From Alphaproteobacteria bacterium (GTDB lineage Bacteria; Pseudomonadota; Alphaproteobacteria; Rhizobiales; Xanthobacteraceae): 45,685 nucleotides of DNA. The translations under genes were made by a program, and so were the position numbers. Position 1 is the first letter of the stretch. Each line of letters starts with the position of its first letter. The notes under the pieces are model-generated. The model saw only the letters and a program-made list of their open reading frames with translations. It made no database searches and was not told the DNA's origin. This document shows, in pieces, positions 13,012 to 38,412 of this stretch. Location of the stretch: the NCBI GenBank assembly GCA_016869215.1, contig VGEP01000036.1:1-45685 (forward strand). The letters run 5' to 3'.

Positions 13012-13047
13012 GGCGCCTGGCTCCCGTCGTTGCAGGCCGCGGGCCGG

Positions 13048-16464: not shown

Positions 16465-16502
16465 ACGCTTCTTCTGGAGAAAAGTCCGCGCCTTCGCCTG
16501 CG

Positions 16503-16817: not shown

Positions 16818-16851
16818 GCTCGCCGGCGACCTGCTCCTGCGCCCGCAGCGC

Positions 16852-17487: not shown

Positions 17488-17650
17488 CAGTGGCGCGCCC
17501 AATCGCGCTGTTGCCGCCGCGGCCAGATGTGGCATCGGACCGCGCGCGGGCAGGGTGAATATCTGAAATTCGCCAGTCCGGTCGGGCCGTTGTGCCTCCG
17601 CCGCTCCTCCCGCAAAGCAGCAAAATCGACCGGAAGCGCCGGGCCGAACC

Positions 17651-17701
17651 TTGACAGCGGCTCGCCGAAATCGTTATTTAATCCTAAAATGAACGTTCAT
17701 T
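17651..17701 (+). promoter_or_regulatory. Promoter and TetR-type operator of the efflux operon
   Basis: TTGACA at 17651-17656 is a consensus -35 and TATTTA at 17675-17680 a fair -10, with 18 bases between them. A perfect 14-base palindrome, AATGAACGTTCATT, at 17688-17701 covers the expected transcription start. This layout suits repression by the TetR-type regulator encoded next, at 17745. Confidence 0.7.
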
Positions 17702-17744
17702 CTCTTATTGGTGCAGCGCCACAACAGCGACCTGGAACTATACC

Positions 17745-19459: not shown

Positions 19460-19486
19460 GAGCGGCCGGGAAACCAGGCATTCTCC

Positions 19487-22400: not shown

Positions 22401-22612
22401 CGCGCGAGCTGGTGGTCGGGGCACCGGCCACGCAATGGTGGATCAACCTCTCGACCTCGATCGTGTTCGGGCTTGGCTTTGCGACCGTGCTGACGCTGAT
22501 CGTGACGCCGGCGGCGCTGATGGCGGTGGAGCACGGCCGCGTGTGGCGGCTGCGCCGGATGGCGGCGTTCAAGGCGCGGTTTGCGAAGGTGTCTAGCGCC
22601 TCATCCGCGTGA
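19487..22612 (+). CDS. RND-family efflux permease
   Basis: A 1041-residue proton-driven transporter of the AcrB/MdtB/CusA superfamily, with 12 membrane segments and two large periplasmic loops. TM1 is RLTIVTLLFLLLAGFVAYST. The N-terminal porter domain has SPEDSERLLLRPVETQLKSV and RDEAVEIIAEPMLMKSYGVS. TM4 carries the proton-relay aspartates in LILAVGMLVDDALIVSEFAE; the second half repeats the fold and ends with TGIGVIANAGVIVNNNIVLI and LLTAVTAILGVLPIAFGANI. It looks like the hydrophobe/amphiphile (HAE) type rather than the heavy-metal type. Its last 20 bases overlap the end of the converging amidohydrolase gene. It follows the adaptor, forming a TetR-MFP-RND operon. Confidence 0.95.
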   Translation: MFKLIDYAIGHARLTIVTLLFLLLAGFVAYSTIPKEAEPDIQIPIVYVQLSQRGISPEDSERLLLRPVETQLKSVGNVKEMRSTAFEGGGFVLLEFEAGFDPKAALADVRAKVDQAKRDLPRDADEPSVKEVNLSLYPVLVVALAGEMPERTMLQIARGAKNAIEQVPGVLAAELRGSRDEAVEIIAEPMLMKSYGVSLDQLIAGFNASNTLIAAGALEGPTGRFAVKVPGLIERPQDMLNIPMAAGNGAVVTIGDVVQIRPTFKDATSVTRVNGKPAMTIEVSKRTGANLIETVDGVKKAVEQLRKTWPDAVQVTFTQDKSKVIRQMLADLENSVATGVLLVAVIILFALGFRASLFIGIAIPVSFLTGVLGLQLAGMTVNIVVLFSLILAVGMLVDDALIVSEFAERRMSEGMAPREAYALAAKRMAGPVTAATATRVAAFSPLLFWPGVVGEFMKYMPITLIATLSASLAVALIFTPTLGALLGKAQPVPQDDRSRDSGLYMRTVKLALQRPGATLALAAFLLIAVQVTYAKFGKGVEFFPNVEPDYGQVVVHGRGSISLDEKNRLVGEVENRVLKTEGLATVYSRIGEQPRGMSELSEDTIGVIQFEFSNWRTRPSAHALMDRIRAETADIPGILVEVTAPRAGPPTGKPVQVQIGALDPETLPEAARKVAAILSRNPDIRDLDDGLPLPGIDWKIEVDKAEAAKYGANSATVGTAVQLVTNGVKATEYRPSSSDKEVDILVRFPEDKRNLDQLDELMVQTQAGSVPIGNFIKRVAAPRTGNINRVAGSRVMTVSANVAQGVQTAKVQEAIARELAKTDLGPNVTWKLKGEDEEREKASAFLLKAFGTAIFLIFAILLAQFNRLTSVGLVLTAVILSTIGVLLGLLIMGQAFGVVMTGIGVIANAGVIVNNNIVLIDTYDRLRREGWEAYEAILETCRERARPVLLTAVTAILGVLPIAFGANIEFLSRELVVGAPATQWWINLSTSIVFGLGFATVLTLIVTPAALMAVEHGRVWRLRRMAAFKARFAKVSSASSA

Positions 22613-23597
22613 ACACCCTTCGCGGATTGCCGTCCGAGATCGCGTCGCTGTCGGCCTTGGACAGCCCGGCCGACTGCACCATTGCCAGCGGTTCCATGTC
22701 GGCCGGCGGAAACGAATAGTCGGTGCCGAGCAGCACATTCTCGATGCCCGCGATCTCGATCAGGAACCGCAGCGCCTTCGGCGCGTGCACGATGCTGTCG
22801 TAGGTCATGCGGCGCGCGTAGGCCGACGGCGGTTCCTTGGCGACGTTGGCCTGCGCCACCTTGTCCATGCGCCCGTGCATGACGTCGAAGCGGCCGGCGA
22901 GGTAGGGATAGGTGCCGCCGCCGTGCGACATCAGGAATGTTAGCTTCGGAAAGCGGTCGAACACGCCGGACATGATCAGCGAGCCGATGCCGAGCGTGGT
23001 GTCGTAGGTGTAGTGCGCGATTTGGCCGAGCGCGAACTTGCCGATGCGCGGCACCGCGGTCGCCAGCACCGGATGCAGCAGCACGGGCGCGCCCAGCGCC
23101 TCGGCCTTGCGCCAGAACGGTTCGAGCGGCAATTCGCCGATGTTCGTGCCCTCGACGTTCGCCGAAATGATGACGCCGATCGCCCCTGCATTCAACGATC
23201 GCTCCAACTCGGCCGCCGCGGCTTCCGCGTCGGTCAGCGGCACCGACGAAATCCAGTCGAAGCGGTTGGAATGGTCCGCGGTCCATTCCGTGAGCGTATC
23301 GTTGAGCATGCGGTGCCAGGCGATGCCGTGCTCGCGCGGCAGGCCGTAGGCGAAAATGTCCGGCCAGGTGCCGACGATCTGGCGGTCGAGGCGCTGCTCG
23401 TCGAGCCACTTGAGGCGGTCCGCGACCGGCTCGACCAGGCGCGGGAAGAACGGCCGGACTTTAAAGCCGTAGGCGAACCGCAGCGCCTCCTTGCCGCCGT
23501 CGGCTGGCACAAGCGCAACGCCGATGTCGCGGCCGCGCGCCTTAATGGCGGCGATGAGCTGCGGCGGGATGTAGTGGGCGTGGGTGTCGATCGGCAC
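22593..23597 (-). CDS. ACMSD-family amidohydrolase, second copy
   Basis: A 334-residue TIM-barrel metal enzyme. Metal ligands His6 and His8 (IDTHAHYIPP), His175 (VLLHPVLAT), His225 (FLMSHGGGTYPYL) and Asp293 (LLGTDYSFPP) are all present, as in aminocarboxymuconate-semialdehyde decarboxylase. The long loops differ from the 15323-16291 protein, so it is a separate subfamily. GTG at 23597 is chosen because the family begins at IDTHAH and GGAGA lies upstream. It may decarboxylate or hydrolyse a ring-cleavage product. It precedes nothing closely; the SDR gene upstream on the same strand is 171 bases away. Its 3' end overlaps the converging permease gene by 20 bases. Confidence 0.85.
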   Translation of the reverse strand: MPIDTHAHYIPPQLIAAIKARGRDIGVALVPADGGKEALRFAYGFKVRPFFPRLVEPVADRLKWLDEQRLDRQIVGTWPDIFAYGLPREHGIAWHRMLNDTLTEWTADHSNRFDWISSVPLTDAEAAAAELERSLNAGAIGVIISANVEGTNIGELPLEPFWRKAEALGAPVLLHPVLATAVPRIGKFALGQIAHYTYDTTLGIGSLIMSGVFDRFPKLTFLMSHGGGTYPYLAGRFDVMHGRMDKVAQANVAKEPPSAYARRMTYDSIVHAPKALRFLIEIAGIENVLLGTDYSFPPADMEPLAMVQSAGLSKADSDAISDGNPRRVFTRMRR

Positions 23598-23768
23598 GGA
23601 TGGTTCTCCAATCTGGCAGCACGTGTCCCGGGCGCAGCGCAGCACGAAGTGGTGCGCTGCAGGCCCGGGACCCCGGTCAAATTCAAAGCGGCAAAGAAAT
23701 CGGGGTTCCGGATCAGCGGTGCACCGCTCCGCTTTGCTTCGCGCTGCGCCGCATCGGGGACACGCGCC

Positions 23769-24581
23769 TCACCTCTTGTCCCGCAGCCGGTCCATCAGCG
23801 ACTTCTCCTGGCCACCGTCGATCTCGATCATGGTGCCGTTGACCATGTGCATCAGCGGCGAGGCCAGCATCACCACGAGATTGGCGCATTCCTCCACCTC
23901 GGCGATGCGGCCCATGGGTATCGAGGACGGCGCGAGCTTGTCCGCCTCCTCGTAGGGCAGGTTCATGTCGCGCGACATCGCTTTCACGAGGCCGGCCCAG
24001 CGCTCGGTCCTCACCGGGCCGGGGTTCACGGCGCAGAAGCTGATGCCGTGCTTGCCGTACTGGCCGGCGAGCGACAGCGTCAGGTTCTGGCCCGCGGCGT
24101 TGGCCGCGCCGGGACAGATTTCCCAGTAAGAGGGCTTCACACCGTCGTTGCCGATCAGGTTTACGACTCGGCCGCCGCCCTGCTTGACCATGATCGGCAG
24201 CACGTAGCGCAGGCAGCGCACATAGCCCATGAACTTGAGCTGCAGCCCTTTCTCCCAGTCGTCCTCGGTCAGGTGCTCGATCACGCCGCCCGCGGCCGAG
24301 CCCGCGTTGTTGACCATGATGTCGCAGCGGCCGAGCTCCTTGTGGGCGCGCTCGATGAAGGCCTTGGCGTCCGCGTCCTTGCGCAGGTCCGCGACGATCG
24401 GCACGATCTTGCGATTGGTGGCGCGTGCGATTTCGTTGGCGGTCGCCTCCAGCACGTCCTTCCTGCGGGCACAGATCGCGACGTCCACTCCTTCCTTGGC
24501 GAGCGCCAGCGCAATGCCCTTGCCGATGCCTTCGCTGCCGCCGGTCACCAGTGCGGTCTTGCCTGAAAGTTGAAGGTCCAT
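23769..24581 (-). CDS. Short-chain dehydrogenase/reductase-like protein lacking the usual YxxxK
   Basis: The N-terminal half is a normal SDR Rossmann fold: TALVTGGSEGIGKGIALALA (residues 10-29), an ADLRKDADAK segment and NNAG in MVNNAGSAAGG. The C-terminal half has GGGRVVNLIGNDG and NPGPVRTERWAG. In the place of the catalytic YxxxK there is SYWEICPGAANAAGQNLTLS: the Lys position is Asn and no Tyr sits four residues before it. It therefore probably uses different chemistry or has lost activity; a few SDR subgroups vary here. GAGGAG precedes the ATG at 24581. It lies upstream of the amidohydrolase gene on the same strand. Confidence 0.85.
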   Translation of the reverse strand: MDLQLSGKTALVTGGSEGIGKGIALALAKEGVDVAICARRKDVLEATANEIARATNRKIVPIVADLRKDADAKAFIERAHKELGRCDIMVNNAGSAAGGVIEHLTEDDWEKGLQLKFMGYVRCLRYVLPIMVKQGGGRVVNLIGNDGVKPSYWEICPGAANAAGQNLTLSLAGQYGKHGISFCAVNPGPVRTERWAGLVKAMSRDMNLPYEEADKLAPSSIPMGRIAEVEECANLVVMLASPLMHMVNGTMIEIDGGQEKSLMDRLRDKR

Positions 24582-24606
24582 GGTCATCTCCTCGATGGAT
24601 GAATTT

Positions 24607-24691
24607 CGTAGCCCGGATGGAGCGCAGCGCAATCCGGGGTAAAACTAGCCGGCCTGTTCCCGCATTCCGCTTCGCTTCATGCGGGCTACGA
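24607..24691. repeat. REP-like inverted repeat at the end of the cyclase gene
   Basis: CGTAGCCCGGATGGAGCGCA with ATCCGGGG on the left is opposed by CCCGCATTCCGCTTC and CATGCGGGCTACGA on the right. The GTAGCCCG and CGGGCTAC arms pair, and the cyclase stop codon (24686-24688) lies in the right arm. This type of element is common in Hyphomicrobiales. Confidence 0.65.
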
Positions 24692-25534
24692 TGCCATGAT
24701 CGCCTTCGCCGCGTCGCCGACGGCTTCGACGCTCTCGCCCGCGTCGAGGAACGCCACGATCCGGCAGGGGCATCCTTCCAGCCCCTCGTAGCGCCACGGG
24801 AAGGCGCCGATGATCGCGCGCTTGTTCAGCATCAGCTCGATGTCGCCGCCGAGATTCTCGGCATGCAGAAGCCCTTCCTGGAACGCCCAGTTGTGGAACG
24901 GGAATACGTCGGCGGAGACCTTCCGTCCGGACTTCTTGTGCACGTACTCGAACGTGCCGAAGAACTCGCCCGGCGTCTTGCCGTGCTTCATTGTGAACTC
25001 CTCCGCGAGGTCGGGCCGCATATAGCGGATCGACGTGTTCATGGCGTGGTCGCAGGAGCCGGTGTCCATGCCCCACCATCTGATCTTCTTCCTGAACATC
25101 CAGTGCAGCGTTTCGAGGCTCGGGCCCGGGTGGTAGCAGAAGTAGCGCACCAGGTCCTGCTGCGGCATGCCCTCGTAATGTTTGTGCCAGCCGGTATGCA
25201 GAATGAGGATATCGCCCTCGCGGATATCGGCGCCGGCGCTCTCGATCATCTGCGGCGTGATCACCGCCCAGTCGTGCATGTGCTTGGAGATGTCGACCAC
25301 CACGCCGCGGTTGCAGAGGTAGTCGAGCGGCAGGTGCGCCATGTCGCCCTTGCGGTTGTCGGTGGCGTGCATCGCACCGTCAAAATGCGTTCCGACATGC
25401 AGCGCGGTGTCGATGCGCTGCGCGACGATCCGCACCGTCTGAAGGTTTTGCGCGTAGTACATCTTGTTGCCGGCGTAGCCGACCCACCCCGGCGTGTGCA
25501 CGTTCATAACGTGGCTCATGTCGACGATCTTCAT
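24686..25534 (-). CDS. Cyclase / kynurenine-formamidase-like hydrolase
   Basis: A 282-residue member of the cyclase family (Pfam Cyclase), metal-dependent hydrolases that include kynurenine formamidase and isatin hydrolase. The signature HxGTHxDxxxH is HVGTHFDGAMH, with His46, His50, Asp52 and His56 as likely metal ligands. VVVDISKHMHDWAVITPQMI and GDILILHTGWHKHY are typical of the family, and the C-terminal GAFPWRYEGLEGCPCRIVAF carries a Cys pair. Length fits larger members of the family. GGGAG precedes the ATG at 25534. It could hydrolyse a ring amide or formamide; isatin-type or kynurenine-type substrates would suit an aromatic catabolic region. Confidence 0.85.
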   Translation of the reverse strand: MKIVDMSHVMNVHTPGWVGYAGNKMYYAQNLQTVRIVAQRIDTALHVGTHFDGAMHATDNRKGDMAHLPLDYLCNRGVVVDISKHMHDWAVITPQMIESAGADIREGDILILHTGWHKHYEGMPQQDLVRYFCYHPGPSLETLHWMFRKKIRWWGMDTGSCDHAMNTSIRYMRPDLAEEFTMKHGKTPGEFFGTFEYVHKKSGRKVSADVFPFHNWAFQEGLLHAENLGGDIELMLNKRAIIGAFPWRYEGLEGCPCRIVAFLDAGESVEAVGDAAKAIMAS

Positions 25535-25561
25535 GGCGTGCTCCCGGCCGGCTCTTTCGCT

Positions 25562-25610
25562 GCGCACGATCGGATCCGAAAACCGGTTCCCACTTTCCGG
25601 GATCGTGCGC
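25562..25610. repeat. Short palindromic repeat with perfect 10-base ends
   Basis: GCGCACGATC and GATCGTGCGC are exact inverted ends around a core AAAACCGGTTCCCACTTTCC. The core shares ACCGGTTCCCACTT with the RIME-like element at 33009-33115. It lies between the divergent cyclase and molybdopterin-hydroxylase genes. Confidence 0.7.
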
Positions 25611-25672
25611 CTGCTTGCATGTTCTCAGGGCCGGTTCTAGCGTTCAAGCGACATGCCAGCGAAGAATTGGCC

Positions 25673-27946
25673 ATGACCGTCGCGACGCTGATCGGCCAGC
25701 CGGTCCACCGGGCCGAAGACCTGCGGTTCCTCAAGGGCGCGGGCGCGTTCGTCGACGATCTGCAGCGCGAAGGCATGCTGCACGCCGTCGTGCTGCGGAG
25801 CAGCGTGGCGCACGGCCGCATCCGCAGCATCGGCGCAACCGCAGCGCGCGCCATGCCCGGCGTGCATGCGGTCATTACAGCGCAGGATGTCGGTCAAGAC
25901 CTTGGCAACGTGCCGATCATCCCGCTCCGGCTTGCGAACCTGCCGGAGTTCAAGGACTACCTTCAGCCGGTCATCGCCAGCGACAAGGTGCGCTACGTCG
26001 GCGAACCCATTGCGGTCGTGGTGGCGGAGACGCGGGCGATCGCCGAGGACGCGCTGGAAGCGGTCGACATCGATATCGAGGCGCTGCCGCCGCTGCCGGA
26101 CCGGCAGGCCGCGGACGGCGGCGCGCTGCTGTTCGAGCACACCAAAAGCAACCGTGCCGTGCGGTACAACGCGGCATTCGGCGACGCGGACGCGGCCTTC
26201 GCCAGGGCGGAGTACACCCGCAAGGAGCGGTTCCGCTGCCACCGCCTGACGGGACTGCCGCTGGAGACGCGCGGGCAGATCGCGGAGTGGAACGGCGGGC
26301 GGCTCACGGTGTTCGGTGCGACCAAAGTTCTCTTCTTCAACCGCCGCATTCTCGCGCCGATGCTCGGCGTCACCGAGGCCGACATCGACATGATCGAGGT
26401 CGACGTCGGCGGCGGCTTCGGCGTCAAGGGCGAGTTCTACCCGGAGGACTTCCTGATCCCATTCGCCGCGCGCAAGGCCGGCCGGCCGGTGAAGTGGATC
26501 GAGGATCGCCGCGAGCACCTGATTGCGACCAATCATTCGCGCGAGGTCGACTGCGAGATTGAGATCGCCTGCAGCCGCGATGGCACAATCCTCGGCATGC
26601 GCGGGCACGTCACCAGCGACATGGGCGCCTATATCCGCACCAACGGCGGCGTGGTGCCGGCGAAGGCCGCGCAGTTCCTGCCCGGGCCGTACCGCATTCG
26701 CGATATTGCGGTCACGGTCGACGTGTTCGTCACCAGCAAGACGCCGGTCGGGACCTTGCGTGCGCCGGGGCGGTTCGAGGCCAATTTCTTCCGCGAGCGG
26801 CTGCTCGACATCGTTGCCAAAGACCTCGGCCTAGACCCGATGCAATTCCGGCTCAAGAACCTGATCGCCGAGGATGAATTGCCGTTCCACACCGGCAAGC
26901 TCGTGCCCTACGAGCCGGAGACCGATTTCGACACCGGCGACTACCACACGACGTTTACGCGCGCCCTGACCGAGATCGGCTGGGCCGAAAAGAAATCGCT
27001 GCAGGGCCGCTTGGTCGACGGCCGCTATCACGGCATCGCCGCGACGCCGTTCGTGGAGAGCGGCGGCTCCGGCAAGGAGAACGCGCGCGCCGAGATCGAG
27101 AACGACGGTTCGGTCACGGTCTATGCCGGATCGTCGGTGCTGGGGCAGGGGCTCGAAACCACGCTCGCGCAGGTCGCGGCCGACACGCTGAAGCTGCCGT
27201 TCGACAAGGTCCGCATCCTGCACGGCTCCACGACCTACCTGAAGGAAGGCTTCGGCACGTTTGCCTCGCGCTCCATGGTGGTCGGCGGCTCGGCGGTGCT
27301 GGACGGCTGCAACAATCTGCTGGCGGCGGTGCGCGACGCGGCGAGGGAGCGCTTCGGCCTGCCGAACGAAGAAATCGCCATCGAGAATGGCGTTGTGTCC
27401 GCGGGCGGCAAGCGCGCGACGCTGTCCGAATTCGCGGGGTTGTCCGCCGAGGGCTCGTTCTCGACCACGACCCGCACCTACAGCTACGGTGCGCACGCCT
27501 GCCACGTGGCGGTCGATCCGCGTACGGGCCATGTCGAGATTCTCGACTATGTGGCGATCGAGGACGTGGGCGTGGCGATCAACCCGCACATCGTCCACGG
27601 CCAGGCAATCGGCGCGCTGGTGCAGGGGCTTGGCGGCGTGTTCCTGGACGAGGTGCGCTACGATGCCGACGCGCAAATGCTGAACGCCTCGCTCGCCGAT
27701 TACCTCGTGCCGCTTGCGACCGACTATTCCAACATCCGCGCCATCACCATGGAATTGCGGCGCTCAAAGACCAATCCGCTCGGCGCCAAAGGCGCGGGCG
27801 AAGGCGGGATGGTCGCGGTCGCGGCGACGATGGCCAACGCGGTCGCGGCCGCGCTCGCTCCGCTCAGCGTGGAGGTCCGCGAACTGCCGTTGTCGCCGTC
27901 GCGGGTGTGGGCGCTGGCGCAAGGCGCCGGCCCGGCGCGCGCCTGA
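25673..27946 (+). CDS. Xanthine-dehydrogenase-family molybdopterin-binding subunit (orphan large subunit)
   Basis: A 757-residue CoxL/XdhB-type large subunit of a molybdenum hydroxylase. The N-terminal a/b hammerhead domain begins GQPVHRAEDLRFLKGAGAFV. The Mo-cofactor domain shows DVGGGFGVKGEFYPEDFLIP, the substrate-binding loop KTPVGTLRAPGRFEANFFRE, and the catalytic Glu in KGAGEGGMVAVAAT. Such enzymes hydroxylate aromatic or heterocyclic carbons with water-derived oxygen. No [2Fe-2S] or FAD subunit gene is adjacent; the nearest set is at 33.1-34.6 kb. The ATG at 25673 is used: the frame is open upstream only by chance over the opposite-strand cyclase gene. The Shine-Dalgarno is weak. Nicotinate, quinoline or isoquinoline-type substrates are possible. 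Confidence 0.9.
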   Translation: MTVATLIGQPVHRAEDLRFLKGAGAFVDDLQREGMLHAVVLRSSVAHGRIRSIGATAARAMPGVHAVITAQDVGQDLGNVPIIPLRLANLPEFKDYLQPVIASDKVRYVGEPIAVVVAETRAIAEDALEAVDIDIEALPPLPDRQAADGGALLFEHTKSNRAVRYNAAFGDADAAFARAEYTRKERFRCHRLTGLPLETRGQIAEWNGGRLTVFGATKVLFFNRRILAPMLGVTEADIDMIEVDVGGGFGVKGEFYPEDFLIPFAARKAGRPVKWIEDRREHLIATNHSREVDCEIEIACSRDGTILGMRGHVTSDMGAYIRTNGGVVPAKAAQFLPGPYRIRDIAVTVDVFVTSKTPVGTLRAPGRFEANFFRERLLDIVAKDLGLDPMQFRLKNLIAEDELPFHTGKLVPYEPETDFDTGDYHTTFTRALTEIGWAEKKSLQGRLVDGRYHGIAATPFVESGGSGKENARAEIENDGSVTVYAGSSVLGQGLETTLAQVAADTLKLPFDKVRILHGSTTYLKEGFGTFASRSMVVGGSAVLDGCNNLLAAVRDAARERFGLPNEEIAIENGVVSAGGKRATLSEFAGLSAEGSFSTTTRTYSYGAHACHVAVDPRTGHVEILDYVAIEDVGVAINPHIVHGQAIGALVQGLGGVFLDEVRYDADAQMLNASLADYLVPLATDYSNIRAITMELRRSKTNPLGAKGAGEGGMVAVAATMANAVAAALAPLSVEVRELPLSPSRVWALAQGAGPARA

Positions 27947-27964
27947 AGGCTGTCGGCCGGGTGG

Positions 27965-28663
27965 CTACGCGCTCTTGCGCTGCGTCACCGGAACGAGCCG
28001 GGCGGCGGCCTCGTCGGTCGTCATCACGTCGCCGAAATAGATCATGAAGTTGTTCAGCGAGGCCGCGTGCTCCTCGTCGCTCTGCGAGGCGTTGCCATCT
28101 GACAGCATGACCACACGGTAGTCGAGCATCATGGCGTCGCGCGCGGTCGACTCGCAGCAGACATTGGTAACCGTGCCGGTGATGAGCAGCGTGTCGATGC
28201 CGCGGCTCTTGAGTTGCGCGTCGATATCGGACGAGCCCGCGATGAAGGCGCTGTACTTGACCTTCTTGATCCGCAAGTCGCCCGGTACGACTTCCAGCGC
28301 CGCAAACACCTTGAAGCCGTCGTGCGTCTCGTCGAGTTGCGTCAGCCGTTTTTGCACCCGCTCCGGCGTCATCTGGTGCTTGTGGTGGTTGCCCCAGGTC
28401 TCCAACGCGCCCGTCGCCGTGGTCTGGATCCAGACCACTGTGCCGCCCGCGGTGCGCAGCGCCTTGGCCATGCGGTTGATGTTCGGCACAATCCCGCGCG
28501 CCGTCGGTACCTCGGCGGCGAAGCCTTGGGCGACGAAATAATTCTGCATGTCGACCACGACCAGCGCCGTGCGGGCAGCGTCGATGGTGTCGTGGTTGTG
28601 CAGCCGGCCCTGGCGACGGATCACCCGATCCTGCACCCATTGCGGGATGGTGTAGTTGTGCAT
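27965..28663 (-). CDS. Isochorismatase-like cysteine hydrolase
   Basis: A 232-residue hydrolase of the isochorismatase-like superfamily (nicotinamidase, RutB, biuret hydrolase, N-carbamoylsarcosine amidase). The catalytic triad is visible: Asp38 (ALVVVDMQNYF), Lys136 (IKKVKYSAF) and Cys169 (TGTVTNVCCESTARDA). Unlike true isochorismatases it keeps the Cys, so it should hydrolyse an amide or ureide. GGAGG precedes the ATG at 28663. It is the third gene after the URC1-like and URC4-like genes on the same strand, 68 bases downstream of the latter. An involvement in breaking a ureido or amide intermediate of uracil breakdown is the natural inference, but RutB activity is not proven. Confidence 0.88.
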   Translation of the reverse strand: MHNYTIPQWVQDRVIRRQGRLHNHDTIDAARTALVVVDMQNYFVAQGFAAEVPTARGIVPNINRMAKALRTAGGTVVWIQTTATGALETWGNHHKHQMTPERVQKRLTQLDETHDGFKVFAALEVVPGDLRIKKVKYSAFIAGSSDIDAQLKSRGIDTLLITGTVTNVCCESTARDAMMLDYRVVMLSDGNASQSDEEHAASLNNFMIYFGDVMTTDEAAARLVPVTQRKSA

Positions 28664-28731
28664 GGCTCGCCTCCGGTGCATTGGACAGACGCGATGAGGC
28701 TAGGGCCGGGCCCGAATACCGTCAATGAGCC

Positions 28732-29949
28732 TCAGAACACCGTACCGTCGTCCGCTAGCGGCATGGGCGGCGGGCCGCCCGGCGGGCGCAATTCGCGCGC
28801 GATTTTGCGGCCGGCGTTCCAGGTGCCGCCCTGCAGGAGATGCGGCAGCGCGAATTGCGCGCCGAGGCCGAGGCGTTGCCGCACCGGATCGAGCAGGTCG
28901 TCCATCAGCGCGACGGTGAGCGCGCGCCATTCGACGACCGGCTCCGACGTGGGCGCGAGCGGCGCACCGAACGGCTGGCGTGGGACGATGACGCCGAGGT
29001 CGATCAGCAATCCGCCGTTGCGGTACTCGGGCAGTGCGGTCAGCCGGTCGAGGCCGGCCACCGTCAGGCCCGCCATCTCCAGCGGCTCGATCAGCGAATA
29101 GGTCAGCCACTGCGATAGCTTGTGGAACGGCACGATGCCGTTCGTTGCGTCGTCCGCGCGTGCGGCGGGATGGCGGCCGGCGTCGCCGAGGCTCGTGCCG
29201 TCGGCCACCAGCCCTGACGGCCAGATCGGCGCCAGCGATTGTAGCAGCGTTTCGAGCACGAGCGGGGCGGGGACGCGGCTGCCGCTCGCGGATGCAGAAA
29301 AATGATCGATCAGCCATCCGGGCCGCCGCTCCTGGCCGAACAGATCGGGCCGCGCCGCGAGCGTCTGGCCGAGCCTCCGCAGAAGCTCCACGCGCCGTTC
29401 GACGCCGATCAGCGGGTTGTCGGGAGTGAGCTGAAAGGCGCGAGCCAGCTTCTCCGCATCGACGGCCTGCAGGCCCGCGGTGTCGGCCATCAAGGGCCGC
29501 TTCGGATCGGACGAAAAGCCGCCGGCCGCGAACAGCTCAAGGCTCGCGACCGCAAGTCCTTCCGAGCGCGCGTGGACCTGCCCGGCCGAAGTCTCGCGAT
29601 AGCGCCAGCGCTCGCCCGCGCCGGCGTCGAGCAGCACGCTGACGGTGGCGAGGTCAATCGCGATGCGCGCCCGCTCGGTGGCGTTGCCGCCGAGCCGCTG
29701 CGTCAATGCCGCCCAGCGGTCGGCGCCGCCCGCAGCGAAATGCCGCCAGCGGCTGTGCGGTGGAATTTTCAGATCGGGATAATTGGCCCGCGTTTCCGCT
29801 GCGACATAATCCGCAGCCTCGGCCAGCCTGCCTTCGTTCAACGTGAAATGCGGCGAACGGCCTTCGGCGACGTGGCGGCGGACGATGCGGCAACGCTCGC
29901 GCACGGCATCGGCGCTCAAGAGCCGCGCGTACGCCGCGATGCCGGTCAT
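28732..29949 (-). CDS. DUF1688 / URC4-like protein of uracil catabolism
   Basis: A 405-residue protein of the DUF1688 family, named after yeast URC4/urg3 in the reductive-independent uracil degradation (URC) pathway. Landmarks are LLSADAVRERCRIVRRHVAE, PPHSRWRHFAAGGADRW, SAGQVHARSEGLAVASLEL and GTSLGDAGRHPAARADDATN, then FHKLSQWLTYSLIEPLEMAG and the C-terminal EYRNGGLLIDLGVIVP. The enzymatic reaction of URC4 is not established to my knowledge. It starts one base after the stop of the GTP-cyclohydrolase-II-like gene, so the two are co-transcribed; the same pairing is the hallmark of the URC pathway. It ends 68 bases before the isochorismatase-like gene. Family call is confident; function in this organism is inferred. 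Confidence 0.88.
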   Translation of the reverse strand: MTGIAAYARLLSADAVRERCRIVRRHVAEGRSPHFTLNEGRLAEAADYVAAETRANYPDLKIPPHSRWRHFAAGGADRWAALTQRLGGNATERARIAIDLATVSVLLDAGAGERWRYRETSAGQVHARSEGLAVASLELFAAGGFSSDPKRPLMADTAGLQAVDAEKLARAFQLTPDNPLIGVERRVELLRRLGQTLAARPDLFGQERRPGWLIDHFSASASGSRVPAPLVLETLLQSLAPIWPSGLVADGTSLGDAGRHPAARADDATNGIVPFHKLSQWLTYSLIEPLEMAGLTVAGLDRLTALPEYRNGGLLIDLGVIVPRQPFGAPLAPTSEPVVEWRALTVALMDDLLDPVRQRLGLGAQFALPHLLQGGTWNAGRKIARELRPPGGPPPMPLADDGTVF

Positions 29950-29950
29950 G

Positions 29951-31243
29951 CTATTCGTCGAGCTTGCGGCCGACGGCTTCCGCCGGTGCGCGGCCGTTGC
30001 CGCCGTAGTAGCCGGCGGCGAGCTTGGCTTCGATCTCGACCCGCGCGTCCGCCGGGATCATGCCGTCGGGGATCGCCACGCGTTCGCCGATTTCGATGCC
30101 CTGGCGCACCAGCGCGTCGTGCTTCATGTCGCTCATCGACGCGAAACGGTCGATGCGCGTGACGCCGAGCCAGTGTAGCACGTCGGGCATCAACTCCTGG
30201 AAGCGCATGTCCTGGACGCCCGCGACGCATTCGGTGCGCTTGAAGTAGGTCTCCGGCCGGTCGCCCTCGGCCTGGCGCTTGCGTGCGTTGTAGACCAGGA
30301 ACTTGGTGACCTCGCCGAGTGCACGGCCTTCCTTGCGGTTGTAAACGACGACGCCCGTGCCGCCCTGCTGCGCCATCTCGATGCAGATTTCGATGCCGTG
30401 CGCGAGATAGGGCCGGCAGGTGCAGATATCGGAGCCGAACACGTCGGAGCCGTTGCATTCGTCGTGCACGCGGCAGGCGAGCGGGGTCTTGCCGTCGCCG
30501 AGCTTTCCCGGATTGCCGAACACATAGATGGTCATGCCGCCGATCGGAGGCAGGAACACTTTAAGGTCCTCGCGCTTGACCAGGTCTGGATACATGCCGC
30601 CGGTCTGCTCGTGCAGGTCGCGGCGCAATGCCTTTTCCGTCACGCCGAAGCGCGCGGCGACGCCGGGCAGGTACCACACCGGGTCGATGGCGGCCTTCAT
30701 CACCCGCACGTTGCCGTCGGCCGACACGATATCGCCGTCGGCGCGGATGCGGCCGGCGGCAATGGCGCCGCGGATTTCCGGCATGTCGATATGCGCGCGT
30801 GTCACTGCGATGGTCGGCCGGATGTCGTGGCCGAGCGCCAGATAATCGGGGAACGCCTCGCCGACCAGATGGCCCCACGGATCGAGCGAGACGATCTTGG
30901 CGGGGTCGCACCACTGCGGATGCGGGCCGATGCGGTCGGACGGTGCGGTGTCGGTGAGGTCGGGACGGTGGCCGCGCGGCAGCGAGCCCGCGGCGATGGC
31001 GAGTGCGCGATAGACCGAATAGCCGCCGGCGTGCGTGCCGATGACGTTGCGGTGGCCGCGGTTGCCGTGGGTCGCGACGATGGGCCCGCGCTCCCGCGCA
31101 GTCGGTGCACCCCAGCGCAAGGACGGCGCGCCGACGCGCGTGCCGAGCGGCGCGATCGGCGGCGAGTCGGTCTCGCCGTCGAACAGCGCGTTCAGACTTG
31201 ACTCCGTCTGCGACACCATGTTTCTAGCCTCGTCATCCTTCAT
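29951..31243 (-). CDS. GTP-cyclohydrolase-II-like protein (URC1 type)
   Basis: A 430-residue protein with a C-terminal GTP cyclohydrolase II domain. The Zn-binding cysteines are Cys263 (HDECNGSDVFG), Cys274 and Cys276 (DICTC), the RibA spacing of C-x10-C-x-C. RibA proteins have RCDCG here, whereas DICTCRPYLAHG resembles the URC1 subgroup. GGTGVVVYNRKEGRALGEV matches the RibA catalytic segment. The extra N-terminal 200 residues (VATHGNRGHRNVIGTHAGGY, AVTRAHIDMPEI) are also typical of the URC1-type proteins and absent from RibA. There is no DHBP-synthase (RibB) domain. Start is uncertain: ATG at 31243 is used, 31219 and 31267 are alternatives. It is the first gene of the operon. Ring opening of a uracil nucleotide or nucleoside is the inferred role. 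Confidence 0.82.
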   Translation of the reverse strand: MKDDEARNMVSQTESSLNALFDGETDSPPIAPLGTRVGAPSLRWGAPTARERGPIVATHGNRGHRNVIGTHAGGYSVYRALAIAAGSLPRGHRPDLTDTAPSDRIGPHPQWCDPAKIVSLDPWGHLVGEAFPDYLALGHDIRPTIAVTRAHIDMPEIRGAIAAGRIRADGDIVSADGNVRVMKAAIDPVWYLPGVAARFGVTEKALRRDLHEQTGGMYPDLVKREDLKVFLPPIGGMTIYVFGNPGKLGDGKTPLACRVHDECNGSDVFGSDICTCRPYLAHGIEICIEMAQQGGTGVVVYNRKEGRALGEVTKFLVYNARKRQAEGDRPETYFKRTECVAGVQDMRFQELMPDVLHWLGVTRIDRFASMSDMKHDALVRQGIEIGERVAIPDGMIPADARVEIEAKLAAGYYGGNGRAPAEAVGRKLDE

Positions 31244-31577
31244 CGCGTGTCCCGTGCGGCGGTCGTTCATTGGCCGACAGCAACGATTCGGGACCTGCGA
31301 AAAAACAACCAGAATAATGTTAAATCGGCCTTTCGGCAAGGGACCGGCCTTGTACGATTGCGCGCTGTTCTGCGACGCCGCACACGCTTGCTCCATCTTT
31401 TGACGCGTTTTCTTCACGCGAACCGGCGCCCACTTCGCTCCAAAACGCGATCGGGCGGCGGCGAACGCATTGCGGGACAACCGTGCCGCAATTGTCATCG
31501 CCAGTCGCAGCGAATAACGATGGATCGGCCCATTCCGGGGCCGCCGGCGCGAGGCCGGAGATGCAAGGAGCGCGATC
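31244..31577. other. Divergent intergenic region between the URC1-like and UbiD-like genes
   Basis: No gene is seen. It holds the right module of the RIME-like repeat at 31396-31451, an AT-rich tract at about 31297-31327 that could carry the minus-strand promoter, and TTGTCA at 31492 as a weak -35 candidate for the plus-strand gene. The Shine-Dalgarno AAGGAG at 31565-31570 serves the UbiD-type gene. Confidence 0.5.
31396..31451. repeat. RIME-like intergenic repeat, right module only (copy C)
   Basis: TTTTGACGCGTTTTCTTCAC, GCGAACCGG and CCACTTCGCTCCAAAACGC match the right half of the elements at 9556-9658 and 33009-33115; the left GGCTTTGAT palindrome is absent. Confidence 0.75.
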
Positions 31578-33011
31578 GTGGCGAACAAGGACCTGCGGGA
31601 CTGGCTCGGCGACGTGAAGGCGGCGGGCGAGCTGAAAACCATCCAGGGCGCCGAGCCCAAGGAGGAGATCGGCGCCATCGTCGACATCTACATGCGCCAG
31701 ATGGGCAATCCGGCGGTGATGTTCGACGACGTGCCCGGTTTCCCGAAGGGCCATCGCGTGCTCGCCAACATCCTCACCTCGATCCCGCGCGTGAACCTCG
31801 CGCTTGGCCTGCCGCCGGATGCCACCGAGATGGAGCAGATCCAGTGGTGGCGGAACTATTTCAAGGAAGCGCCGATGCGCCCGACCAAGGCGGTCAACGG
31901 CGGGCCGCTCACCGACAACGTGTTCTCCGGCAAGGACGTCGACATCGGCAAGATTCCGACGCCGGTCTGGCACGAGCACGACGGCGGGCCGTTCATCGGA
32001 ACCGCGTGCCTCGTGGTGATGAAGGACCCCGACAGCGGCTGGGTGAACTACGGCACCTACCGCGTGCAGTCGCACGACGCCAACACCGCGAGCGTGATGA
32101 TGTCGCCCGGCAAGCACGGGCTGATCATCATGCGCAAATATCACGAGCGCGGGCAGCCGTGCCCGGTCGCGGTCATCGCCGGTATGCATCCGGCGCTGGT
32201 GATGCTCGGCGGCATCGAAATTCCCTACGGCAAGAACGAGCTCGAGGCCGCGGGCGGAATCTTCGGCGAGTCGGTCGAGGTCATCAACATGCCCAAGACC
32301 GGCCTGCCGGTCCCGGCGAATTCCGAGATTGCGTTCGAGGGCTACATCAATCCCAATGACAGGATCAAGGAAGGCCCGCTCGGCGAATGGACCGGCTACT
32401 ACGCCAGCGGCAGCGACCTCGAACCCGCGATCCGGATCGAGACGCTGATGTACCGCGACGATCCCATTCTCGTCGGCGCGATTCCCGCGGTGCCGCCGAA
32501 CGACAACACGTTCTACTTCGGCTCCTACCGCTGCGGTGCGGTCTGGAACCAGCTCGAGGCCGCAGGAATCCCGGGCGTGAAGGGCGTGTGGGCGCACGAG
32601 GCCGGCGGCAGCCGCTTCATGCTGGTGATCTCAATCTCGACGCTTTACGGCGGCCACTCCAAGCAAGCCGCAATGGTGGCGGCGCACTGTCACGCCGGCG
32701 CCTACTGCAACCGCTGGACCGTCGTGGTCGACGACGACATCGACCCGACCAACTTCAACGACGTGATCTGGGCGATGTGCACGCGCTGCGATCCACGCGA
32801 CCAGGTCGACATCATCCATGGCGGCTGGTCGTCGGCGCTCGACCCGATGTGTTACGACACCGCCGACGACCGGCGCAATTCGCGTGTCATCATCGACGCC
32901 TGCATTCCATTCCGGCGCAAGAAGACGTTCCCGAAGGTGGCGAGGTCGAGCCGCGAGCTCGACGAGCGCATCAAAGCCAAGTGGGCGAAGGATTTGCCGA
33001 AGGGGTTTTAG
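31578..33011 (+). CDS. UbiD-family (prFMN-dependent) decarboxylase
   Basis: A 477-residue reversible decarboxylase of aromatic or alpha,beta-unsaturated acids using prenylated FMN. The fold landmarks are VNYGTYRVQSHDANTASVMM (Asn157, Arg162 region), MRKYHERGQPCPVAVIAGMH and the catalytic-loop GPLGEWTGYYASGS, with Glu270 in the place of the conserved UbiD Glu. Length and pattern match the UbiD/Fdc/hydroxybenzoate decarboxylase clade rather than ubiquinone biosynthesis. No UbiX prenyltransferase gene is visible in the window. GTG start with AAGGAG 8 bases upstream. It faces the opposite way to the CoxLMS-type operon, and its stop codon lies at the edge of a dispersed repeat. The substrate is unknown. 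Confidence 0.92.
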   Translation: MANKDLRDWLGDVKAAGELKTIQGAEPKEEIGAIVDIYMRQMGNPAVMFDDVPGFPKGHRVLANILTSIPRVNLALGLPPDATEMEQIQWWRNYFKEAPMRPTKAVNGGPLTDNVFSGKDVDIGKIPTPVWHEHDGGPFIGTACLVVMKDPDSGWVNYGTYRVQSHDANTASVMMSPGKHGLIIMRKYHERGQPCPVAVIAGMHPALVMLGGIEIPYGKNELEAAGGIFGESVEVINMPKTGLPVPANSEIAFEGYINPNDRIKEGPLGEWTGYYASGSDLEPAIRIETLMYRDDPILVGAIPAVPPNDNTFYFGSYRCGAVWNQLEAAGIPGVKGVWAHEAGGSRFMLVISISTLYGGHSKQAAMVAAHCHAGAYCNRWTVVVDDDIDPTNFNDVIWAMCTRCDPRDQVDIIHGGWSSALDPMCYDTADDRRNSRVIIDACIPFRRKKTFPKVARSSRELDERIKAKWAKDLPKGF

Positions 33012-33115
33012 AGCATTTCCGACTTTGATGAAATCAAAGCCGGGACTCTAGCCATTTTGTTTTGACGCGTTTTCTTGACGCGAACCGGTTCCCACTTCGC
33101 TTGAAAACGCTATGG
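33009..33115. repeat. RIME-like intergenic repeat, copy B
   Basis: Left module GAGCATTTCCGACTTTGATG then AAATCAAAGCCGGGACTCTA, right module TTTTGACGCGTTTTCTTGAC then GAACCGGTTCCCACTTCGCT. Its first TAG is the stop codon of the UbiD gene. Same architecture as 9556-9658. Confidence 0.8.
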
Positions 33116-33136
33116 GCTCCGCGCCGGCTCCTTCCG

Positions 33137-33730
33137 CTATTCGGTGCCAGGCTTCGGGGGCGCATCCTCCTGCGCGCGGACCTGATCGTCGACTCTGGCC
33201 TGGACTTCCGCTTGAATCAGAGCCTCGGCCTCGGCCAGCGCGCCGGCTAGCGCATGAGCCTGCGCCGCGGCGAGGTCCTTGCCCGCCGCGACGACGGCCT
33301 TGACGATGTTGGCGTAGCCCGTACAGCGGCAGATCTGGCCGCTCAACTCGTGGCGCACGGTGTTCGCATCCGGACTCTGGTGACGCTGCAGGATGTCGCG
33401 CGCCATGATCAGCATACCAGGCGTGCAGAACCCGCATTGCAGCGCGTGGCATTCGTGAAACTGCCTGCGCAGAATGTCCATGATCTGGTCGTTGCGCAAT
33501 CCTTCGAGCGTGAGCACGACGCGGCCGTCGCTCATGACGGCGAGCGACAGGCACGAGCGCGTCGCCTTGCCGTCCACCACCACGGTGCAGGCGCCGCAGG
33601 CGCCGTGCTCGCAGCCAAGATGTGTTGCGGTCAGGCCGCAGCGCTCGCGCAGGAAGTCGGCGAGCGACTGCCGCGGCTCCACGTCGTCGGCGATCCGCAC
33701 GCCATTGAGATCGATTGTGATCGCCGTCAT
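33137..33730 (-). CDS. Molybdenum hydroxylase [2Fe-2S] small subunit (CoxS-type)
   Basis: Carries the electron-transfer [2Fe-2S] centres. Plant-ferredoxin-type cluster: Cys40, Cys45, Cys48 (LGCEHGACGACTVVVDG) and Cys60. Second cluster: Cys99 and Cys102 (QCGFCTPGMLIMARDI), Cys134 and Cys136 (GQICRCTGYANIV). Residues 150-197 are an Ala/Gln/Glu-rich extension beyond the usual 150-170 residues. The start codon overlaps the FAD-subunit stop (ATGA), so translational coupling is likely. Gene order in transcription is L-M-S. Confidence 0.95.
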   Translation of the reverse strand: MTAITIDLNGVRIADDVEPRQSLADFLRERCGLTATHLGCEHGACGACTVVVDGKATRSCLSLAVMSDGRVVLTLEGLRNDQIMDILRRQFHECHALQCGFCTPGMLIMARDILQRHQSPDANTVRHELSGQICRCTGYANIVKAVVAAGKDLAAAQAHALAGALAEAEALIQAEVQARVDDQVRAQEDAPPKPGTE

Positions 33731-34557
33731 TGCGTCCGCATGTCCCGTATCGCGCGCAGCACCGTCGCAGTGTGCATCCGCTTCTGATAGTCGTCGGCGC
33801 CGGGCGCGACTTGCGCGAGATCGGCCTCGATGGCCGGCCGCAGTTCGTCGCCGCTCTTGCCGCCCTCCAGTTCCTCCGCGACCGTGCGTAGCGCGCGTGG
33901 CTTGGGGCCTGCGGCACCGAGTACGACGTTAACCCGCCCGCTGCGGCCCAGTGCCGTGGCAATTGCAATCGATTGGGCGAAGGCGCCGCTCTTGCGTGCG
34001 ACCTTGGAGAAGCCCCACCGCGTCGGAACGCTCGGCGTCGGAACGTCAAAGCCCATGACGATGTCGCCGGCCGAGAGCGTGGTTTCGTATTGGCCCCGGA
34101 CGAATTCGGACACCGGCTGCACGCGCACGCCATTGCGCCCGACAACGCGCACCGTGGCGCCGAGCGCGATCAGGCAACACGGCCAGTCGGCTGCGGGATC
34201 GGCGAGCGCGACGCTGCCGCCGATGGTGCCGTGATTGCGCACCGCGCGATAGGAGATCTGGCCCGCGACGCGTTTCAGCAGGCCGTTGAACAAGTCGGGG
34301 ACCTTGCCATCCTCGATTGCGGCATGGGTGGTGAGCGCGCCGATCCAGATGCTGTCGGGAGATCGCGTCACGACCTTGAGGTCGTCGAGGCGCGACAGGT
34401 CGACCAGCAGGTCGGCGAAGGCGACGCGCAGGTTCAGCATCGGAATCAGCGACTGGCCGCCGGCGATGGCCGCGGTGTTCACGCCCTTGCGGCCGAGCGC
34501 GACGCTCGCCTCCGCGACCGTTTTCGGCCGCACGTAATCGAACGAAGCGGGCTTCAT
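33727..34557 (-). CDS. Molybdenum hydroxylase FAD-binding medium subunit (CoxM-type)
   Basis: A 276-residue subunit that passes electrons from the [2Fe-2S] centres to FAD and the final acceptor. FAD-binding motifs of the family are visible: AAIAGGQSLIPMLNLRVAFA (like the AGGQSLxPxxNxR pyrophosphate loop) and RNHGTIGGSVALADPAADWP (like TxGGxxxxxDP). The C-terminal domain follows, with FSKVARKSGAFAQSIAIATA. It overlaps both neighbouring genes at ATGA sequences. Confidence 0.95.
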   Translation of the reverse strand: MKPASFDYVRPKTVAEASVALGRKGVNTAAIAGGQSLIPMLNLRVAFADLLVDLSRLDDLKVVTRSPDSIWIGALTTHAAIEDGKVPDLFNGLLKRVAGQISYRAVRNHGTIGGSVALADPAADWPCCLIALGATVRVVGRNGVRVQPVSEFVRGQYETTLSAGDIVMGFDVPTPSVPTRWGFSKVARKSGAFAQSIAIATALGRSGRVNVVLGAAGPKPRALRTVAEELEGGKSGDELRPAIEADLAQVAPGADDYQKRMHTATVLRAIRDMRTQ

Positions 34558-36914
34558 GCGGCGTCGTCCCTGGCGCGGCGGGCGCGGGCGACCGCTTCGG
34601 AGACGCGGCGCGGGGTCAGCGGCGTCTCGTTGAAGCTTGCCCCGATCTTGCGGAACGCATCCGCCACGGCGTTGGCGAGAACTGCCGGCGGGGCGATGGC
34701 GCCGCCTTCGCCGAGGCCCTTCACGCCGTATTCGGTCGCCTGCGCGGGCGTGACGATGTGCGCCATGCGCACTGTTGGAATCTCCGGTGCGCAAGGCACC
34801 ATGTAGTCGCCGAACGTGGTTGCAAGCGGCTGGCCGATTTCGTCGTAGGGGATTTCCTCGTAGAGCGCGGTGCCGATGCCCTGCGCGATGCCGCCCTGCA
34901 CCTGGCCGTCGACGATCAGCGGGTTGATCATGGTGCCGCAGTCCTCGGTCACCACGTAGTCGAGGATTTCGAGCGTGCCGGTGTCGGGGTCGACCGCGAC
35001 CACCGCGGCGTGGGTGCCGTAGGCGAACACGCCCCCGGTCTCGGTCGGCTCGTAGGTGGCGGTGACGTCGAGCAGCGGGTCCATGCCGGCGGGCAGGTGC
35101 TCCTGTCGCACGTTGGCGGCGTAGGCGATCTCGGCGAAGCCGACCGAGCCGGAGGGCCCGTGCACCTCGCCGCCCTCGATGCGGACATTGGCAGGATCGG
35201 TTTGCATCAGATGCGCGCCGATGCGCTTGAGCTTGTCGATCAGCATGCGGCTGGCGCGCGCGACCGCTCCACCGGAGAACACGATCGAGCGCGAGGCGAA
35301 GGTGCCGAAGCCGAACGGCGCAGTCGCGGTGTCGCCGTATTTGATCGCGATGCGGCTCGGATCGATGGACAGCTCGTGCGCTGCGATCTGCGACAGCGTG
35401 GTCTCGTGGCCCTGGCCGTGGTTCTGCACGCCGACGTGGATGATGACGGAGCCGTCCGGTAGCATGCGCGCATTGGCGGATTCGTAGCCCGGCACCACGC
35501 GCGACTTGCGCTTGACCCATTCCACCGTGCCGTGGCCGCTCTGCTCGGTGTAGAAGGCGAAGCCCACGCCGATCGCGCGGCCGTCGCTTTCTCCGACCTC
35601 CTGGCGCTTGCGGATCGCGGGCAGATCGATCATGTCGCGCGCGGTGTCGAGCGCCTGGACGTAGTCGCCGGTGTCGAGCCGCATACCGGCTGCGGTGCGG
35701 TAGGGCAGTTCGGCCGCGGTGACGATGTTCTGCCGCCGCAGATCGAACGGCTCGCGGCCGAGTTCGCGCGCCACCTCATCCACCAGCCGCTCGATAGCGA
35801 AGCAAGCGCCCGGCCGCGCCACGCCGCGATAGGGGCCCATCGGCGCCTTGTTGGTCGCGACGGTGAACGTGTTGAGCTTCAGATGCCGGATGCGATAGGG
35901 GCCGGTCAGGTTGCGCGAAGCCATGCTCGCTTCCATGAACGAGCCTGTGGGCCACAGCGAATATGCGCCGGCATCGATGTACACGTCGCCCTCGACGCCG
36001 AGCAGCGTGCCGTCGCGGTCGGCGGAGATGGTGAGGTCGTAGGTGTGGTCGCGCGCGTGCACCGACGCGATCAGGTGCTCGCGGCGGTCCTCGATCCAGC
36101 GCACCGGGTGGCCGACCTTCATCGCGATAGCGCAGACCGCGATGTCCTCCGGCATGATGCGGTTCTTGCCGCCGAAGCCGCCGCCGACGTCGGGCGCGAT
36201 CACGCGCACCTTGTGTTCGGGCAGCCCGAGCGACTGCGCAATCGCGATCCGCATGACGTGGCCGCCCTGGGTCGACAGGTGGACGGTCAGTTCGTCGTTG
36301 CGGTGGTCCCAGTAGGCCAGCACGCCGCGGCATTCCAGCGACACGGTCGCCTGGCGGTTCATGCGGAACTTGCGCCGCAGCCGGACCGGCGCAGCTTGAA
36401 GCGCCGGCGGGTCGCCCTCGGTCACGTTGCCGGTGATGAAGGCGTTGTCGGGCCAGTGCTCGAACAGCCGCGGGCTGTCCGGCAACATGGCCGCCACGCA
36501 GTCGACGACGGCGGGCAATTCTTCAAGTTCGGCGGTGACGCGGTCGGCGAGATCCTCGGCCTCCGCGCGCGTCGGAGCCATGCAGGCCGCGATCGTTTGG
36601 CCTGCATAGCGCACGCGGCCGTCGGCGAGCGGTGGGTAGGGGCTGTGGCGGTGGGCGGCGAGTTCCGGACCCGCTTCGAGAATTGCGATCGGGCCGAGGT
36701 CGGCCAGCGTGAATACGCTCGCCGCGGCCTCGGGCGGCTTGACGATCTGGCGGACGTTGGCGTGCGCCATCTGGCTGCGCACAAAGGCGATGTCCTGGAG
36801 GCCCGGCATGCGGATGTCGGCGACGAACATGCCGTGGCCGAGCAGGTGGCGGGCGTCCTCCTTGCGCAGCAGGCTTGCACCGATCCAGCCGTCGGCGGGC
36901 GGGTGGTCAGCCAT
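34554..36914 (-). CDS. Molybdenum hydroxylase large subunit (CoxL/aldehyde-oxidase type)
   Basis: A 786-residue Mo-pterin subunit. The N-terminal hammerhead domain starts IGASLLRKEDARHLLGHGMF. Cofactor binding is marked by PDVGGGFGGKNRIMPEDIAV and the catalytic Glu in KGLGEGGAIAPP. The active-site loop is KAPMGPYRGVARPGACFAIE. True CO dehydrogenase (form I) has AYxCSFR with a Cys binding Cu; here the loop reads PYRGVAR, so this is a form-II-like hydroxylase, not a CODH. First gene of the L-M-S operon. A carbon-hydroxylation role on an N-heterocycle, aldehyde or aromatic is likely. It diverges from nothing closely and follows the acyl-CoA-dehydrogenase-like gene on the same strand, with a 95-base gap. 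Confidence 0.95.
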   Translation of the reverse strand: MADHPPADGWIGASLLRKEDARHLLGHGMFVADIRMPGLQDIAFVRSQMAHANVRQIVKPPEAAASVFTLADLGPIAILEAGPELAAHRHSPYPPLADGRVRYAGQTIAACMAPTRAEAEDLADRVTAELEELPAVVDCVAAMLPDSPRLFEHWPDNAFITGNVTEGDPPALQAAPVRLRRKFRMNRQATVSLECRGVLAYWDHRNDELTVHLSTQGGHVMRIAIAQSLGLPEHKVRVIAPDVGGGFGGKNRIMPEDIAVCAIAMKVGHPVRWIEDRREHLIASVHARDHTYDLTISADRDGTLLGVEGDVYIDAGAYSLWPTGSFMEASMASRNLTGPYRIRHLKLNTFTVATNKAPMGPYRGVARPGACFAIERLVDEVARELGREPFDLRRQNIVTAAELPYRTAAGMRLDTGDYVQALDTARDMIDLPAIRKRQEVGESDGRAIGVGFAFYTEQSGHGTVEWVKRKSRVVPGYESANARMLPDGSVIIHVGVQNHGQGHETTLSQIAAHELSIDPSRIAIKYGDTATAPFGFGTFASRSIVFSGGAVARASRMLIDKLKRIGAHLMQTDPANVRIEGGEVHGPSGSVGFAEIAYAANVRQEHLPAGMDPLLDVTATYEPTETGGVFAYGTHAAVVAVDPDTGTLEILDYVVTEDCGTMINPLIVDGQVQGGIAQGIGTALYEEIPYDEIGQPLATTFGDYMVPCAPEIPTVRMAHIVTPAQATEYGVKGLGEGGAIAPPAVLANAVADAFRKIGASFNETPLTPRRVSEAVARARRARDDAA

Positions 36915-37009
36915 GTCTTGTCACTCGTTGTTCCATGTCCAATCTATGGGCCGCGCCCAATTTGCATAGCCCTGCGGGCCGCACAAGCCGCCGTGAAATT
37001 GCGCACGGT

Positions 37010-38221: not shown

Positions 38222-38412
38222 TTCGGCGCCTTTCCCCGTTCCCGGCCGTCTACGGCCAATTTTCGGCCCGGTCCAATCCCTTAGCCACATCGGCGGAAAT
38301 CATGATACCAAAGACCCGCGCCGCCGATACGGCCCGAAACGATGCGGCAGGCCGGGGCTGCGCGCCCCGCGGCAGTTCCGCCGCCTTCGCCTCGCAACCC
38401 CTACGATGAAGC

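Follow-up and report, generated by a model that had tools for sequence, protein, structure and literature searches.

The window analysed here, a stretch of 45,685 nucleotides taken at its full length (positions 1 to 45,685 of contig VGEP01000036.1, assembly GCA_016869215.1, from an alphaproteobacterium of the family Xanthobacteraceae), carries on its minus strand a run of three open reading frames (ORFs) that had been annotated as one operon, probably for uracil/pyrimidine breakdown. The run begins with URC1, of the UTP-cyclohydrolase type (UrcA-like; 29951..31243, 430 aa), followed after a gap of 1 base by URC4, a DUF1688 protein (28732..29949, 405 aa), and after another 68 bases by a Cys hydrolase of the isochorismatase family (27965..28663; 232 aa when counted from the ATG common to its orthologs, although translation could also begin at 28681). 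The first-pass annotation had placed the three genes at these positions with this spacing, and the ORFs were found again exactly there. In Pfam, URC1 contains GTP_CH_N (1.9e-75) and GTP_cyclohydro2 (1.8e-13), URC4 is matched over its full length by DUF1688 (PF07958; 3.8e-140, 468 bits, above the cut-off), and the third gene matches Isochorismatase (1.5e-41).

The URC1-URC4 pair

The closest solved relatives of URC1 are PDB entries 7EEV and 7EJ3 (578 bits, residues 36-419), which we take to be UTP cyclohydrolase, their database label being GTP cyclohydrolase II; they are reportedly described by Zhang et al. (ACS Catal 2021). Homology to these bacterial enzymes is nearly full-length, the motifs are shared, and we see no difference in kind. 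The riboflavin-type GTP cyclohydrolase II 2bz0, presumably the E. coli enzyme, reaches only 39 bits. In the alignment with it, C54, C65 and C67 correspond to C263, C274 and C276 of URC1, and Y105 and R128 to Y318 and R347; we assume the former to be the zinc ligands and the latter catalytic residues of this enzyme type. All five positions are identical in 131/131 URC1 rows. Thus, the earlier remark that DICTC stands in place of RCDC is true when URC1 is compared with 2bz0, but the three cysteines at the zinc positions are retained. Among NCBIfam models, URC1 scores 712 bits against NF005536 (cut-off 403).

DUF1688 is present in 62 of the 200 genomes from the window's kin, a count that includes the genome of the window itself. 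We read loci from 59 of the other 61, all but the fragments G009 and G084 (G009 was later read as locus L136). To these we added 80 named loci from a scan with the URC1 alignment, the best 80 of at least 582 confirmed; together with the window this gives 140 loci, 138 of them distinct, which are not a random sample, since all were chosen by URC1 or URC4. URC1 and URC4 occur jointly in 132 of the 138 distinct loci. When duplicates are counted there are 134 joint loci, and in 131 of them URC1 is followed by URC4 on the same strand within less than 500 bp; in two the genes are less than 3 kb apart and in one the order is reversed. Uracil phosphoribosyltransferase (UPRT) is encoded in the stretch read in 125 of the 138, and lies no more than 5 kb from URC1 in the 124 of these that also have URC1; 13 of the 140 loci have no UPRT, but several of those are small contigs and some stretches are short. 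These linkages, together with the profile scores, bear out the identities first proposed for URC1 and URC4 and support a role of the pair in pyrimidine metabolism. The claimed linkage of all three genes survives for the pair, which is widely conserved, and fails for the third gene, which is not conserved in the survey.

The same two families, with UPRT as third partner, make up the URC system (URC1, URC4, URC6) of Lachancea kluyveri and, in Schizosaccharomyces pombe, the uracil-induced cluster urg1-urg2-urg3 (PMC7530994, PMC2174524, PMC3869809). The window differs from both yeast systems in its UPRT, which lies on a separate contig, and in its third gene, an unrelated hydrolase. The pair itself is ordinary and of a known kind.

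Among the loci lacking one partner, L178 (a Rhodospirillaceae metagenome-assembled genome) has URC1 at 2506-3630 and 8 kb of downstream sequence without URC4; here either URC4 was replaced by another enzyme or the locus was split. L181, L184, L204 and L216 also have no URC4, but about 1.4 kb or less is left beyond URC1, and L036 has only URC4 where its contig ends.

A predicted N-glycosidase fold in URC4

An AlphaFold model of URC4, built on 75 aligned proteins, has a mean pLDDT of 93.6. When it was compared with the PDB by Foldseek, 11 chains had E < 0.001, and all of them, the human protein included, are DUF2419/Qng1 (E 1.3e-9 to 5.1e-8, probability 1.00, TM(target) 0.69-0.75); the match at rank 12 falls to E 0.32 and probability 0.04. 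Qng1 is described as a queuosine-nucleotide N-glycosylase with the 5'-monophosphate as its main substrate (PMC12301720). Sequence profiles give traces of the same relationship: hmmscan at a permissive threshold detected Pfam Q_salvage in 7/14 and 26/75 DUF1688 proteins (best 1.3e-5), where other extra families appeared in at most 4/75. Ten DUF1688 proteins scanned singly gave five Q_salvage matches (E 4.1e-4 to 0.25; 11.3-20.4 bits against a cut-off of 25), four of which lie in the C-terminal third of URC4 and one elsewhere.

PDB titles name the Qng1 variants K199C and D231N, both residues falling within FYK...FADY. URC4 has a counterpart motif, FHK277...PE308Y, with a spacing of 31 rather than 32, and hhalign, in a weak alignment, sets K199/D231 against K277/E308, so that the Lys is kept and the Asp becomes Glu. 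K277 and E308 are identical in 131/131 rows (130 distinct), and on this sequence evidence we regard them as the candidate catalytic residues of URC4. In yeast, URC4 is said to break ribosylurea down to urea, and the Qng1-like fold and the two invariant residues fit that reported role (PMC7530994). Going by the model, the most probable function of URC4 is that of a ribosylurea N-glycosidase that frees urea.

Several observations speak against this assignment. Q_salvage (PF10343) had no match by hmmscan in the URC4 of the window itself, nor in 48/74 other members, and hmmsearch of the PDB sequences with two URC4 (DUF1688) profiles did not find Qng1. The residue match spans a 58-residue segment with an hhalign probability of 2.2% (P 0.022). 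One may also consider that URC4 has the Qng1 fold and a different chemistry, such as phosphorolysis or transfer, as the Glu in place of Asp at the aligned catalytic position might suggest. However, the Lys and the acid never vary among the aligned rows, and hydrolysis would suit the expected product, urea; we therefore consider such a change of chemistry unlikely. URC4 resembles Qng1/DUF2419 in the fold of its model and, if the weak alignment is right, in a motif that carries a Lys and an acid; it differs in the Glu of that motif, in the lack of a PF10343 match and in the expected leaving base, which would be urea rather than queuine. On balance we think it likely that DUF1688/URC4 is a new branch of the Qng1 superfamily in bacteria and fungi, with Glu for the catalytic Asp, that cuts urea from a ribosylurea nucleotide.

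The third gene and the surrounding catabolic block

The full Asp-Lys-Cys triad first noted in the hydrolase is present (D38, K134 by alignment with RutB, and C169). Superfamily and triad are shared with the ureidoacrylate amidohydrolase RutB and the biuret hydrolase BiuH. The gene is neither of these by curated cut-offs, scoring 98.6 of 377.95 bits against the RutB model TIGR03614 and 60.8 of 370 against the BiuH model NF050097, far below in both cases. Full-length orthologs with 80-83% identity are found in G001, G003 and G006, one with 66% in G076, and a fragment covering residues 1-83 (83%) in G009. We built a profile of the family from 34 homologs together with the genes of L047 and L034; run on ORFs of at least 100 aa from the 140 loci, it matched the window gene, one divergently oriented gene in L047, two in L034 and nothing else. 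Thus, only 2/137 other URC loci read (L034, L047) carry any gene of this family, and none carries an ortholog.

The genes around the run belong to a different system. Downstream of the hydrolase lie a second molybdopterin large-subunit gene (25643..27946, plus strand, the start being that of the open frame), a PF04199 cyclase-type hydrolase (24686..25567, minus strand) and an Amidohydro_2 protein with an SDR dehydrogenase (22593..24632, minus strand). On the other side of the URC pair are a UbiD-family decarboxylase (31578..33011, plus strand), which in two relatives is the direct neighbour of the hydrolase ortholog, and three genes for the 2Fe-2S, FAD and molybdopterin subunits of a molybdenum hydroxylase (33137..36914, minus strand). 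The block (22593-38290 of the window) also contains an acyl-CoA-dehydrogenase-like protein and has two molybdopterin large subunits.

We read 20 kb around the hydrolase in two genomes of the same genus, L132 (G006) and L133 (G003). Both keep around it (81-83%) the Amidohydro_2 protein, the cyclase, the molybdopterin subunit, UbiD and the molybdenum hydroxylase subunits, with block proteins 80-95% identical to those of the window and the FAD subunit 69-70%; the SDR was present in L132 and not seen in L133, and the last hydroxylase subunit of L132 is cut by the end of the stretch. Neither URC1 nor URC4 was found within the 20 kb read in either genome. The gap between hydrolase and UbiD is 179 bp in both, and it is in this gap that URC4 and URC1 lie in the window. 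Genes for an NMT1-type binding protein, an ABC ATPase and a permease stand beside the hydrolase in L132, L133 and L135 (Pfam, cluster representatives); in L132 and L133 this trio follows the second molybdopterin large-subunit gene, and in the window it is missing. A different situation was observed in L136 (G009), where the N-terminus of the hydrolase, the intergenic stretch and the end of URC4 match the window in a single DNA alignment (79%, 622 columns), and where, at positions 1-622, URC4 is reduced to a tail with a stop. The junction is therefore common to two species, with URC4 decayed in one, and the lineage of L136 is a case of URC loss.

As the URC pair sits within an unrelated catabolic block, the hydrolase is probably a bystander that belongs to this molybdenum hydroxylase/UbiD block and not a component of the URC pathway. 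Its own role may be guessed to be an amidase step through which the block degrades an N-heteroaromatic carboxylate. Some findings count on the other side. The hydrolase is adjacent to the URC pair and co-directional with it, and may be co-transcribed with it today. In L047, the closest URC relative, an isochorismatase-family gene lies beside a LysR-type gene that adjoins URC1. Nor is the block universal, for the available sequence around the orthologs of G001 and G076 shows no UbiD and no URC. Alignments of the intergenic sequence at the junctions stop, on the hydrolase side, at offsets that agree (70 bp), with scores no better than those of shuffled sequences on both sides.

The first-pass annotation had proposed that the hydrolase may be a true pathway component acting on a ureido or carbamoyl intermediate. 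An intact triad in a gene 68 bp downstream on the same strand would agree with this, as would the placement of RutB, of the Rut pathway, in the same superfamily (the NCBIfam score above) and the divergent gene near URC in L047 (31%). Yet, neither of the two other loci with a family gene, both of which contributed to the profile, has an ortholog, the orthologs of L132 and L133 stand in blocks devoid of URC, and ribosylurea cleavage has a candidate in URC4 already. We consider the proposal highly doubtful, and the claim of a pathway step is not supported by the loci read. Another scenario is secondary co-option to uracil breakdown, in which the gene lost its ABC-transporter neighbours and gained the URC promoter. 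Both flanks are indeed rearranged relative to L132/L133, with the trio gone and URC gained while the gene stayed intact, but the rest of the block (UbiD, molybdenum hydroxylase, cyclase) is equally intact and in L136 it is the URC side that decayed, making co-option very improbable.

Trees of URC1, URC4 and both joined kept 131/140 loci; L036, L086, L153, L178, L181, L184, L204, L216 and L227 were excluded because a protein was missing, stop-bearing or too short. The pair of the window falls in a clade of 13 members with L038, L040, L047 and Ancylobacter-type loci (support 0.988 for URC1, 0.989 for URC4 and 1.0 joined), the order inside which is poorly supported. All five same-genus pairs in the trees fall outside this clade; in G003 the URC pair, of another clade, is far from the hydrolase block, and in G006 pieces of URC4 lie at contig ends. 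That the pair sides with loci of other genera, and with none of the five pairs from its own genus, favours its acquisition, and we infer that it was inserted here rather than lost from the relatives. GC content (0.706 in URC4 and 0.681 in URC1, against 0.633-0.693 in nine other genes measured) is indecisive as a mark of insertion. A promoter and terminator scan of 27900-31700 gave a single promoter-like site, within URC4 but on the plus strand, and no terminator-like site.

In L047 (region 2654-20000), the neighbours of URC include genes that by eye resemble those of urate/allantoin catabolism, as well as an NMT1-type binding protein and an isochorismatase, and a barbiturase/cyanuric-acid-hydrolase-like gene starts at position 19410. 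It is possibly a purine/pyrimidine catabolic island.

Predicted uracil breakdown in this genome

UPRT had been said not to be adjacent, and indeed it is absent from the window, the genome's own copy being on contig 26 beside genes that by eye resemble biotin genes and two M20-type hydrolases. A urease alpha gene is on contig 1. Profile searches of the genome gave no RutA or PreA above cut-off. Two further proteins with PF00925 score higher for that family (184 and 96 bits) than URC1 does (53), and are therefore likelier to be the riboflavin enzymes. That URC1 itself is a riboflavin GTP cyclohydrolase II, as its PF00925 match and the GTP cyclohydrolase II labels of the PDB and NCBIfam entries it matches might suggest, can practically be dismissed given those two proteins, the linkage of URC1 with URC4 and UPRT in other genomes, and the RibA- and RibBA-type NCBIfam models listed, all of which stay below cut-off, as the earlier distinction from RibA had implied.

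Some features of the genome are harder to reconcile with uracil breakdown through URC. UPRT is absent not only from the window but also from the vicinity of URC in its nearest URC relatives (L038, L040, L047). A D-hydantoinase scores above cut-off, and a gene fragment of the barbiturase/cyanuric-acid hydrolase family lies at the end of contig 106 (L263); these two leave other pyrimidine routes partly open. The barbiturase-family fragment, which runs off the contig end, is adjoined by a putative membrane permease (by eye). Among the uracil routes of this genome, URC has the best support, without being proved the sole one.

A UTP cyclohydrolase has been described (Zhang et al. ACS Catal 2021, as cited in PMC12507026). 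In the scheme that we propose, uracil would be converted to UMP/UTP via the UPRT encoded elsewhere; URC1, a GTP-cyclohydrolase-II-like and presumably zinc-dependent enzyme, would hydrolyse the pyrimidine ring of the nucleotide to give a ribosylurea nucleotide; URC4, as a Qng1-type N-glycosidase using the candidate residues K277/E308, would cleave the N-ribosidic bond by hydrolysis, yielding urea and ribose (phosphate); and urease, also encoded elsewhere, would free ammonia from the urea. The reactions of URC1 and URC4 are assigned by comparison of sequences and of the predicted fold. The pair now lies between members of a molybdenum hydroxylase/UbiD/ABC-transporter block, to which the hydrolase would belong. 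We are rather confident that a bacterial URC pair whose URC4 is a Qng1-type N-glycosidase, accompanied by a bystander hydrolase, is jointly the best explanation of this locus.

In the open-access literature, subscription papers being largely outside that scope, we found four papers that mention DUF1688, none containing both DUF1688 and DUF2419, and among the matches listed there none joins URC genes with nucleosidase, N-glycosidase or queuine, which is not proof of novelty. Recognising the third gene as a probable bystander keeps it from being assigned wrongly to the pathway. Through its fold, DUF1688, a family of unknown function present in fungi and many bacteria, becomes a testable candidate N-glycosidase with named residues and, if true, its place in a Qng1 branch would supply an enzyme mechanism for an unclear step of the URC pathway.

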